IMG/VR virus record: IMGVR_UViG_3300036785_000350
Span: 1-41,646 of that record
Reading direction: 5' to 3' (one strand)
DNA: 41,646 nucleotides
From: a virus
Shown piece after piece: positions 28,040 to 30,825 of this stretch. The first letter of the stretch is position 1, and each line of letters opens with the position of its first letter. The position numbers and the translations under genes are program-made. Below the pieces are notes generated by a model. That model was not told the origin of the DNA. It worked only from the letters and a program-made list of their open reading frames with translations, and made no database searches.

Positions 28040-28079
28040 TTTGCATAGGGTAGTTGTTTGATGCAACAATCTATGCAAA
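28040..28079. promoter_or_regulatory. Inverted-repeat operator between divergent genes
   Basis: TTTGCATAG at 28040-28048 and CTATGCAAA at 28071-28079 form a perfect nine-base inverted repeat with a 22-base spacer. It lies between the leftward secreted-protein gene and the rightward HTH gene. A dimeric HTH regulator binding two half-sites two to three turns apart fits; the adjacent HTH protein is the obvious candidate, but this is inference. Confidence 0.55.
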
Positions 28080-28089
28080 AGTAATCCGT

Positions 28090-28263
28090 GTGGACGACCT
28101 CATCGGATCCGCCGAAGCCGCCGAAATCCTCGGCAAAGACCAAGCCACCATCAGCCGCTGGGTCGCCAACGGCACCCTAAAACCCGCCACCAAACTCCCC
28201 GGCCTCTCCGGCGCCTTCCTCTTCCACCGCACCGACATCGAAACACTCGCAACCCATGACTGA
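28090..28263 (+). CDS. Small HTH protein, excisionase/MerR-like
   Basis: 57 aa from GTG 28090 (MDDLIGSAEAAEILG). The segment SAEAAEILGKDQATISRWV followed by FLFHRTDIETLA is the excisionase-family helix-turn-helix with a wing. A TTG at 28054 would add 12 residues but would translate across half of the inverted repeat. It lies next to the integrase, convergent to it, so it may be the recombination directionality factor or an autoregulator. A second protein of this type occurs at 30640. Confidence 0.75.
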   Translation: MDDLIGSAEAAEILGKDQATISRWVANGTLKPATKLPGLSGAFLFHRTDIETLATHD

Positions 28264-28423: not shown

Positions 28424-29278
28424 TTATCGGCGTGCCGCCGCGTCGCACACCGCCCGCAAATCAGCCGCCGCCACCGCCGTATACCGCTGCGTCGTAGCAA
28501 CCGAAGCGTGCCCAAGCATCTCCTGGATAGCGCGCAGATTCCCGGTCCCGGCATAGCCGCGGGTGGCGAACCGGTGCCGCAGCTGGTGCATCGACCAGCC
28601 CGCAGGCATCACCGCCGACACCAGGTGCCCGACCCGGTCCGCGGAGATGTGCCCGTCGATCTTGCCTGGGAACACGAAGCCGCCCCACGGCGCGGCCCGC
28701 CGGATCCGGCCCGCGAGCTCGGCGGTGACCGGGATCACCCGCTGCCGCGCGCCTTTACCGTGCACGATCAGCGACGGACCATCCAGGCCGGCCAGCAGAT
28801 CGTCACGATGCAGACACGCCACCTCGGCGCGCCGCAACCCGGCCTGCCCGGCCAGGCGCACCATCAACGCCACCCGGACATCGGTGATCGCCGTCAGCGC
28901 GGCCCAGACGTCGTCGGTCACCGGGCGCGGCGCCGCGACCGCGGGGCGCACCACCGGCAACCCCGCCGCCGGGTCGGCGTCCACCACGCCGGTCAGCAAC
29001 GCCCACCGATAGAACGAACCCAGACTGGCCCGCAGCCCGCGCCGATGCTCCAACGACACCGCCCGCCCGACGATCCCCACCAGCTCGCCGGTGGCCACCT
29101 TATCCGGATCGGTCACCTGTAGCTCGCGGGCCACCGACCGGACATGGGAACGCCGCGTCTTACGCGTCGCCGCCGACGTCCCCGCCGCCGCCAACCACAC
29201 CAACCAGTCCTCGATCAGCTCATCCCAGCGACCCGGCAACCGATACGACAACACGTGAACATCGGGCATAACGCACAT
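28424..29278 (-). CDS. int: Tyrosine integrase
   Basis: 284 aa (281 if ATG 29269 is used). Residues about 15-100 are the core-binding SAM-like domain (WDELIEDWLVWLAAAGTS). The catalytic domain shows the full tyrosine recombinase set: Arg149 in QAGLRRAEV, Lys175 in VHGKGARQR, His231-x-x-Arg234 in HQLRHRF, His257 in LGHASVATT and nucleophile Tyr266 in TQRYTAVA. It lacks a large arm-binding N-terminal domain, as in the small integrases of BPs-like phages. It would recombine attP (probably at 30289-30323) with a host tRNA gene. No clear ribosome site before either start. The 132-base gap 29279-29410 upstream holds no gene I can support. Confidence 0.94.
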   Translation of the reverse strand: MCVMPDVHVLSYRLPGRWDELIEDWLVWLAAAGTSAATRKTRRSHVRSVARELQVTDPDKVATGELVGIVGRAVSLEHRRGLRASLGSFYRWALLTGVVDADPAAGLPVVRPAVAAPRPVTDDVWAALTAITDVRVALMVRLAGQAGLRRAEVACLHRDDLLAGLDGPSLIVHGKGARQRVIPVTAELAGRIRRAAPWGGFVFPGKIDGHISADRVGHLVSAVMPAGWSMHQLRHRFATRGYAGTGNLRAIQEMLGHASVATTQRYTAVAAADLRAVCDAAARR

Positions 29279-29410: not shown

Positions 29411-29536
29411 TCAACGACATTCGTCGTTATCCCGTGCGGCTGCCAGGGCGGCGAACAACCCGGCTAACACCTGGCCGAACTCCTGGCCAGATTGTGCAGA
29501 ATCCAACTGCTCAGCAATGGTCTTGGGCTGTGTCAT
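29411..29536 (-). CDS. 41-aa helical protein with strong ribosome site
   Basis: ATG at complement 29534-29536 preceded on the leftward strand by AAAGGAGGAG (plus-strand 29544-29553), one of the best ribosome sites in the window. The protein MTQPKTIAEQLDSAQSGQEF followed by GQVLAGLFAALAAARDN is one amphipathic helix pair. It overlaps the preceding leftward gene (TGATG). Its expression may be substantial in the lysogen; function unknown. Confidence 0.68.
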   Translation of the reverse strand: MTQPKTIAEQLDSAQSGQEFGQVLAGLFAALAAARDNDECR

Positions 29537-29757
29537 CAAAAATCTCCTCCTTTCATCCTCAGGCTCGAAACGATCTGATAGCCCTTGTCTGCCAGCTCGG
29601 CCACGATTGCGTCGGCGACGTGTGTGCCGTGAAACTCACCCAGCTCGCCTCGGTGGCCGCAGTGGCACCGACATTTGTCGGGCTTGCCGTTGTCGATCCA
29701 GCCGCCGGCGTGGTAGGCCAAGATTCCAGTCAAGGTCTGTCGTACGTGATCGGCCAT
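29536..29757 (-). CDS. Conserved small Cys/His protein
   Basis: 73 aa with GAGGGAG before ATG 29757. Features: N-terminal helix MADHVRQTLTGILAYHAGGW, then CRCHCGHRGELGEFHGTHVA and DAIVAELADKGYQIVSSL. The pattern C-x-C-G followed by H-x-A-D-AIVAEL is a recurring small actinophage protein, of unknown function, probably binding zinc. It is transcribed toward integrase. Confidence 0.72.
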   Translation of the reverse strand: MADHVRQTLTGILAYHAGGWIDNGKPDKCRCHCGHRGELGEFHGTHVADAIVAELADKGYQIVSSLRMKGGDF

Positions 29758-29799: not shown

Positions 29800-29830
29800 C
29801 TAACCGCTGACTGGGCAGATCAGCGGTTAG
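29800..29830 (-). repeat. Hairpin repeat A in the leftward operon
   Basis: CTAACCGCTGA (29800-29810) pairs perfectly with TCAGCGGTTAG (29820-29830) around the nine-base loop. The same element with few changes occurs at 30031-30057. It covers the stop of the 64-aa gene and precedes the 73-aa gene. It could be an attenuator, an mRNA processing site, or a regulator-binding site. Confidence 0.65.
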
Positions 29831-30014
29831 CATTCCCGTTCGTGACCGTTCCCGCCGCCCACGTACGCTGCGGAGGGTTCCTTTCCATCCACCAAGTGTG
29901 CTGCGGTGGGCCGAAGCAATCACAGTAGTGATAAGACCGCCGACACTCGGGGCATTGATACGTCGGCGTCATCAGCCGACGAAACCACCCGTAACGCCAC
30001 AGCAGTCGCTTCAT
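29820..30014 (-). CDS. 64-aa Trp/Cys-rich protein
   Basis: ATG 30014 (complement) is preceded by GAAAGGAATAG. The protein is basic and aromatic-rich: MKRLLWRYGWFRRLMTPTYQ, then CPECRRSYHYCDC which is a probable zinc knuckle, then WWMERNPPQRTW. Flanked on both sides by the repeated hairpins. No family recognised. Confidence 0.66.
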   Translation of the reverse strand: MKRLLWRYGWFRRLMTPTYQCPECRRSYHYCDCFGPPQHTWWMERNPPQRTWAAGTVTNGNANR

Positions 30015-30088: not shown

Positions 30089-30241
30089 TCATCCCAGCAG
30101 CCATAGTGAAAGTTCGGCAGTCGCCCAGACAAAAGCGACGACAAGTAGCAGAAACCACACGACAGCAGCCTTGGACATGTCCATCAGCCGGTACTCGTAC
30201 TTGTACGCGGCGCACAGTTCCCAAAACCCTTTGAGCATCAT
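30089..30241 (-). CDS. 50-aa one-helix membrane protein next to the repressor
   Basis: ATG 30241 (complement) follows GAAGGGAC on the leftward strand. The product starts MMLKGFWELCAAYKYEYRLM and then has the span AAVVWFLLLVVAFVWATAE (about 25-43), ending LSLWLLG. It is the first gene after repressor, directly left of attP. A small membrane protein in this place is a good candidate for a superinfection-exclusion or lysogeny-maintenance factor, but the sequence shows only its topology. Confidence 0.68.
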   Translation of the reverse strand: MMLKGFWELCAAYKYEYRLMDMSKAAVVWFLLLVVAFVWATAELSLWLLG

Positions 30242-30263: not shown

Positions 30264-30548
30264 TCATGCCGCGACCGTAGACCACTGACCGAAGGGTTGG
30301 TGGTTCGAGTCCACCCGGGGGAGCAACAACTCGGCAACCGGCACATCCAGCCACTGAGCCGTCACCACCACATCCACCGCACCCCACGCCCGCTTACCCC
30401 GCATCCGCCTCGACACCGACCCCTGATCAACCCCCAGCAAATCCGCTAGATCTTCCTGCCGGCGGTGGTTACGCCACATCAGGGTATGGATGCGTTCACC
30501 GATCACCGCGTCGTCGATCGGCGCCGCATGCGTTCGTGCGCGACTCAT
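30264..30548 (-). CDS. rep: Immunity repressor, viral form, with attP in its 3' end
   Basis: 94 aa from ATG 30548. An HTH of the XRE/lambda type spans about 32-56: QEDLADLLGVDQGSVSRRMR. The final residues, LPRVDSNHQPFG (76-87), are an antisense translation of a tRNA 3' half, and the last seven are QWSTVAA. A terminal Val-Ala-Ala resembles ssrA-type tags. Known integration-dependent immunity systems (BPs, Brujita, Charlie) place attP in the repressor gene so that integration removes an unstable tail; the same logic is inferred here. The -10-like TATTGT is eight bases before the start, so the message appears leaderless. Confidence 0.82.
   Translation of the reverse strand: MSRARTHAAPIDDAVIGERIHTLMWRNHRRQEDLADLLGVDQGSVSRRMRGKRAWGAVDVVVTAQWLDVPVAELLLPRVDSNHQPFGQWSTVAA
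30289..30323 (+). other. attP: Candidate attP core (tRNA 3' half)
   Basis: The plus strand shows the 3' half of a tRNA: T-stem GGTGG (30299-30303), T-loop TTCGAGT (30304-30310), CCACC (30311-30315), acceptor strand CGGGGGA (30316-30322) and discriminator G, followed by CA. There is no 5' half and no anticodon, so it is not a tRNA gene. Such partial tRNA sequences mark the crossover region of tyrosine integrases. The acceptor strand recalls tRNA-Asn, but I cannot identify the target with certainty. Confidence 0.8.
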
Positions 30549-30640
30549 AACAGTTGACAATACGACACAACCGCGACAAACGCGACAACTTGCGTGTCGC
30601 GGTTGACAGCATATGGCGCAACGCCATAACGTCCCGCGGG
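30549..30640. promoter_or_regulatory. Divergent promoters and operator of the genetic switch
   Basis: Rightward: TTGACA (30603-30608), 18 bases, TAACGT (30627-30632, a TANNNT -10), predicting a start near GTG 30640. Leftward: TATTGT (plus-strand ACAATA 30557-30562) eight bases before ATG 30548. Between them CAACCGCGACA (30568-30578) and TGTCGCGGTTG (30595-30605) are a perfect 11-base inverted repeat overlapping the rightward -35, and another CGCGACA lies at 30581-30587. These are the expected operators for the repressor. Confidence 0.7.
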
Positions 30641-30825
30641 TGTCATATTCATGCACGCCACCCCAACTCCTCACCCCCAGCCAAGTAGCCCGCCTCTGGG
30701 GCGTCTCCCGGCGCACCGTCCAGCGCTACATCGCCGACGGGAAAATCCCCGCCATCCGGCTCCCCGGCGGCCAGTACCGCATCCGCGCCGAAGACGCCCA
30801 AGCCGCCATCGAAGCCGCATCATGA
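30640..30825 (+). CDS. First rightward gene: excisionase/Cro-like HTH
   Basis: 61 aa from GTG 30640, which coincides with the predicted transcription start; ATG 30613 would lie upstream of the -10 element and is rejected. The core LLTPSQVARLWGVSRRTVQR followed by IPAIRLPGGQYRI is an excisionase-family winged HTH. As first gene of the early operon and divergent from the repressor it is in the place of Cro in BPs-like phages, or it could be Xis. Confidence 0.75.
   Translation: MSYSCTPPQLLTPSQVARLWGVSRRTVQRYIADGKIPAIRLPGGQYRIRAEDAQAAIEAAS

Follow-up and report, generated by a model that had tools for sequence, protein, structure and literature searches.

Does the locus at 30264-30640 of this phage couple immunity to integration? 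The window, that is, the whole stretch of DNA analysed, is a virus record of 41,646 bases carrying terminase, portal, minor tail, DNA polymerase/primase and exonuclease genes together with a leftward rep-int segment, and the phage is a mycobacteriophage. Integration-dependent immunity is reportedly known from BPs, Brujita and Charlie, and the original prediction assigned the same logic to this locus. The analysis presented here indicates that the locus is very probably such a switch, in which the viral repressor of 94 residues (Rep94) would be tagged and destroyed and the form of 87 residues made after integration (Rep87) would be stable and active.

Organization of the rep-int region

The rep gene (30264-30548, minus strand) encodes a helix-turn-helix (HTH) immunity repressor, supported by matches to a PHROG transcriptional repressor family (E value of 2e-11) and, above the cut-off, to Pfam BetR. 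Its viral form, Rep94, ends in LPRVDSNHQPFGQWSTVAA, with QWSTVAA as the last seven residues. When Rep was used as query against viral contigs, a single weak match was obtained, and a megablast search of the 28.5-32 kb region against phages gave no match. No complete tRNA gene was found in the window.

The int gene (28424-29278, minus strand), co-oriented with rep and located about 1 kb downstream, encodes a tyrosine integrase of 284 residues, assigned by PHROG (integrase), Pfam (Phage_integrase) and its position in the tree, and is predicted to be active. Four small ORFs on the same strand lie between both genes, encoding 50 (30089-30241), 64 (29820-30014), 73 (29536-29757) and 42 residues (29411-29539). 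The first three showed no family match, a protein identical to the second is encoded at 609-803 of another viral contig (L048), and the fourth may not be a gene. A scan of the region for sigma-70-type promoters found nothing.

Divergent from rep, a gene at 30613-30825 (plus strand) encodes an HTH_17 protein that is either excise/RDF-like or Cro-like, according to its PHROG excisionase and Pfam HTH_17 matches; in Angel and Taheera, the equivalent position is occupied by an RDF gene. A further gene of the HTH_17 excise-like type (28054-28263, plus strand) is located just past the 3' end of int. The intergenic region separating rep from the HTH gene at 30613-30825 contains a candidate repressor operator (30568-30605), consisting of a perfect inverted repeat of 11 bp (CAACCGCGACA/TGTCGCGGTTG) and an additional, third half-site (30577-30587). 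The inverted repeat has its sole match in the window at this place, where 0.04 would be expected, and half-sites elsewhere in the window were no more frequent than by chance.

The attP core lies within rep and matches host tRNA-Asn genes

The 3' end of rep contains, in antisense orientation, the 3' half of a tRNA gene, as had been proposed for 30289-30323. The attP common core extends one base further on each side, comprising 37 bp (30288-30324, plus strand; ACCGAAGGGTTGGTGGTTCGAGTCCACCCGGGGGAGC), and is identical at 37 of 37 positions to the 3' half of tRNA-Asn(GTT) of Mycobacteriaceae; second copies of the core are present in the prophages of relatives. The original prediction depended on a mycobacterial tRNA gene matching this core, and such a gene is indeed present in potential hosts. 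In a collection with one genome per species (84,980 species), the exact 30-mer of the core was found in 45 stretches, and ARAGORN identified a tRNA-Asn with anticodon GTT at every one of them. The titles of nearly all these stretches name Mycobacterium, Mycolicibacter or Mycolicibacterium, and the remainder are actinobacterial or Mycobacteriaceae MAGs. In 21 of the 45 hosts, the match spans 37 bp or more, and it reaches 40 bp in L012, L027, L030 and L045. Since the core covers the tRNA from its anticodon loop onwards, an intact tRNA-Asn would be rebuilt on integration, and the core may serve integration vectors in species with the matching tRNA-Asn variant.

Among viral contigs, no match was found to a 31-base core ending in GCA, and the core without the final A matched only the L048 contig. 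This second viral contig, whose Int is 96% identical to that of the window, also carries the core, read in an identical frame and followed by the tail -QRLEDEAA. The length of the tRNA match, together with the maintenance of the core in frame in L048, excludes chance as an explanation.

Predicted effect of integration on Rep

The edge of the core coincides exactly with the boundary between codons 87 and 88 of Rep, so that codons 88-94 (QWSTVAA) and the stop codon (30264-30287, minus strand) constitute a tail exclusive to the viral form, as indicated by the in silico attL and by the orphan tails found at attR in relatives. Crossover within the core had been predicted to cut Rep after about residue 87 with loss of the terminal VAA, and this is the outcome in silico: joining the core of the window to each of the 45 host tRNA-Asn genes shortened Rep from 94 to 87 residues in all cases, with loss of QWSTVAA. 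At attL, GGT CAG TGG in the phage becomes GGT TAA in the lysogen, TAA replacing CAG at codon 88. This TAA originates from the anticodon loop, where it is antisense to part of the anticodon plus the following base. The predicted Rep87 ends in LPRVDSNHQPFG, with no residues added by the host. The prophage repressor had also been expected to gain a host-encoded end; because the host supplies TAA at codon 88, this end is reduced to a mere stop codon, and the proposal had to be rejected for the window phage, yet it holds for one of the relatives described below (G634).

During infection, rep would thus be read through the antisense tRNA-Asn half and end in QWSTVAA, a degradation-type tag, and Rep94 would therefore be expected to be destroyed and non-repressing. 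In the lysogen, rep would be joined to the 5' half of the tRNA, whose antisense anticodon loop would provide the stop codon right after codon 87. The tag-free Rep87 would then accumulate, bind the candidate operator at 30568-30605, and confer immunity. Rep94 and Rep87 represent a minimal pair, seven residues apart, which makes the switch testable.

Truncated repressors in related prophages

When genomes of Mycobacteriaceae and Mycobacterium were searched with the integrase and the core, none of the prophages corresponded to the window phage itself. Relatives were identified by integrase searches of the same genomes, followed by searches for a second copy of the core. Both junctions were detected in at least 10 genomes, where they lie exactly at the core: at attL, the rep frame enters the tRNA-Asn gene and stops within it, and an orphan tail remains at attR. 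The prophage attL and attR thus bear out the truncation of rep in these relatives. Besides G195 and G562, truncation was found in G149, G244, G284, G508, G575, G608, G634, G667, G571 and G673, with tails that are longer or do not end in -AA in G667, G571 and G673. A Pfam HTH domain was detected in the four relatives' repressors scanned (G195, G149, G284 and G608); the frame of G667, in which no clear HTH could be recognized by eye, is the weakest case.

The closest complete case is G562 (4.9 Mb contig), with an Int 62% identical to that of the window and a Rep 57% identical over 63 residues. Its attL repressor ends in APRKDSNLQPFG (DSNLQPFG before the stop codon), and the tail at attR ends in QPFDYQVPQRDSAA. 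At the attR of G562 (L182, 7919-9001, minus strand), an acyl-CoA-oxidase-like host frame apparently crosses the core and ends in the phage tail DSAA; a host gene may be interrupted at this point, possibly following a previous rearrangement.

In G195, a single assembly contains three states of the repressor region: an attP form ending in LPRLDSNQQPFGRRIAALRPALSAA, an attL form ending in LPRLDSNQQPFD, and attR, located on contigs C33, C70 and C163 (L110, L104 and L108). The presence of all three in one assembly suggests spontaneous excision of this prophage in the culture that was sequenced. Natural Mycobacterium prophages, including this one, therefore show the truncation directly. The TAA forms the exact end of the IMG/VR prophage G002, whose Int and Rep are equal to those of G608.

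In G634 (L160 and L171), the core is read in another frame: the prophage repressor ends in TYRLTAERSAN, gaining the host-encoded residues LTAERSAN, and the viral form ends in -LALAA (tail TYRSEVVHLALAA). The distribution of repressor modules disagrees with the integrase tree: similar repressors were found in G571 and G575 (58%) and in G634 and G673 (59%), the integrases of which belong to different supported subclades. Exchange at the tRNA-Asn core, by which phages of this integrase group would swap repressor modules and immunity specificity, would explain these pairs as well as the frame change in G634, although we consider it a speculative and rather improbable scenario.

Phylogeny and C-termini of the integrases

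A tree was built from 49 integrases. Those labelled as using tRNA-Asn form one group (support 100/99), which includes the window Int and also three unlabelled rows, and which is separate from tRNA-Arg integrases such as those of Angel and UmaThurman. An ssrA-like C-terminus on the integrase is a typical, though not universal, trait of these systems. The integrases of the window and L048 end in CDAAARR, lacking a terminal -AA, and a BPs-style second level of proteolytic control is therefore not evident in the window phage. The integrases of G149, G195, G244 and G284 have a C-terminal -AA. Those of G508, G575 and G634 (L125, L126 and L127) share a YG-x-AS terminus, possibly another degradation signal, similar to the C-terminal KAS of Rep in cluster G.

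Repressor tails and alternative explanations

The viral Rep of the window has an ssrA-like VAA end, and this type of end is enriched among the repressor tails compared: 10 of 14 end in -AA, against 4 of 283 background ORFs. Because some of the 14 share descent and do not count as fully independent, the computed binomial value overstates this enrichment. The remaining four tails comprise two ending in -VA, one in SGM and one in SGF. The tails of G673 and G571 (L165 and L166), PAVSGF and PAASGM, are closer to the C-terminal VAGF of Int in cluster G than to -AA. With their diverse ends (-AA, -VA, -SGM, -SGF), the tails provide a natural series for the study of mycobacterial degradation signals.

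Integration could truncate Rep with consequences other than protection from proteolysis, if the tail altered oligomerization, DNA binding or an activator role. The wide spread of tail length and sequence among relatives, including the two SGM/SGF ends, would be compatible with such functions, and in BPs a stabilized long form of Rep caused a modest rise in Prep reporter activity, so that the tail may do other things (PMC4557955). Nevertheless, both BPs Rep forms bind DNA similarly (PMC4557955), and the tails have little in common but the -AA/-VA end, which is what a degradation tag would predict; the tails of the window and L048 diverge in their middle portion while retaining the AA-stop. This alternative is consequently regarded as unlikely.

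Considerably less probable is that attP is simply a conventional tRNA-Asn site overlapping the end of rep by accident, with the full-length Rep being active and immunity being independent of integration. Conventional use of this site does occur: prophi79-1 of M. abscessus, prophi102-2 and the Gordonia phages Suerte, Easley and Malibo, which served as negative controls, share the tRNA-Asn site without the switch, and the idea that this site always denotes the switch was rejected. In prophi79-1 (MabQ), whose Int is about 50% identical and whose two ends carry the tRNA-Asn core, a stop codon after LPRLDSNQ interrupts the rep-type frame inside the core, and the prophage does not have this switch. 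However, within the integrase group of the window phage, unrelated repressors read through the core, share one cut position and possess -AA tails, and an accident would not recur in this way.

A decayed or chimeric locus with a non-functional rep, conceivable for an IMG/VR contig without established completeness, is highly improbable, given that int is intact, Rep matches repressor families, and the independent L048 contig keeps the core, the frame and an -AA tail.

Comparison with known systems

The integration-dependent switch is known for BPs and its relatives (PMC4557955; PMC9262239), Brujita and Charlie being compared here through later papers. The predicted BPs-like logic is borne out by the core within rep and by the truncations in the relatives. 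As in BPs and other cluster G phages (Angel, Taheera), a leftward rep precedes a tyrosine int, the 3' half of a tRNA forms a core inside rep, the RDF gene (a candidate in the window) is divergent, the junction creates the stop at attL and the tail is lost on integration; Int is about 48% identical and genome length is similar. In contrast, cluster G phages use tRNA-Arg, lose 33 residues, have Rep and Int ends of DKAS and VAGF, respectively, and show rep/int overlap, whereas the window phage uses tRNA-Asn, loses 7 residues, and has a -VAA end on Rep, an untagged Int and a gap of about 1 kb between both genes. BPs-type systems have no arm-type integrase sites beside the core (PMC9635641).

The Mycobacterium prophages G562, G608, G508, G575 and G634 share with the window phage the integrase (61-65% identity), the tRNA-Asn site, a Rep truncated at attL and a tail at attR, but a clearly homologous Rep was found only in G562 (57%), and G634 uses another frame. 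In M. abscessus, where the switch has been described in nine immunity groups, attP lies within rep in MabB, MabC, MabH, MabK, MabN and MabO (PMC8092301). Several of these groups form the stop codon with the first host base, some carry -AA Rep tags, and Int is untagged in several, being adjacent or 3-5 genes away (PMC8092301), but they lose 20-35 residues compared with 7 in the window phage. MabB uses tRNA-Thr, and the MabK prophage prophiGD43A-5, whose annotated attP in the repressor was recovered by the same analysis as a positive control, has a tRNA-Arg-type core; no site with a named tRNA in these groups is tRNA-Asn. The tRNAs used elsewhere are Ala, Arg, Gly, Lys, Ser and Thr among the Gordonia phages of PMC5559632, Thr in cluster P (PMC9635641) and Met in Bifidobacterium prophages (PMC6109161).

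No earlier report of the switch at tRNA-Asn was found in the literature compared, which did not include the original 2013 description or the M. abscessus supplementary tables. The locus had been suggested to be a distinct variant of its class; this goes too far, as -AA tags, junction-formed stops, untagged Ints and intervening genes have all been published (PMC8092301). Thus, the type of switch is already known and only the tRNA-Asn attB looks undescribed, which extends to tRNA-Asn the list of attachment sites where immunity is tied to integration.
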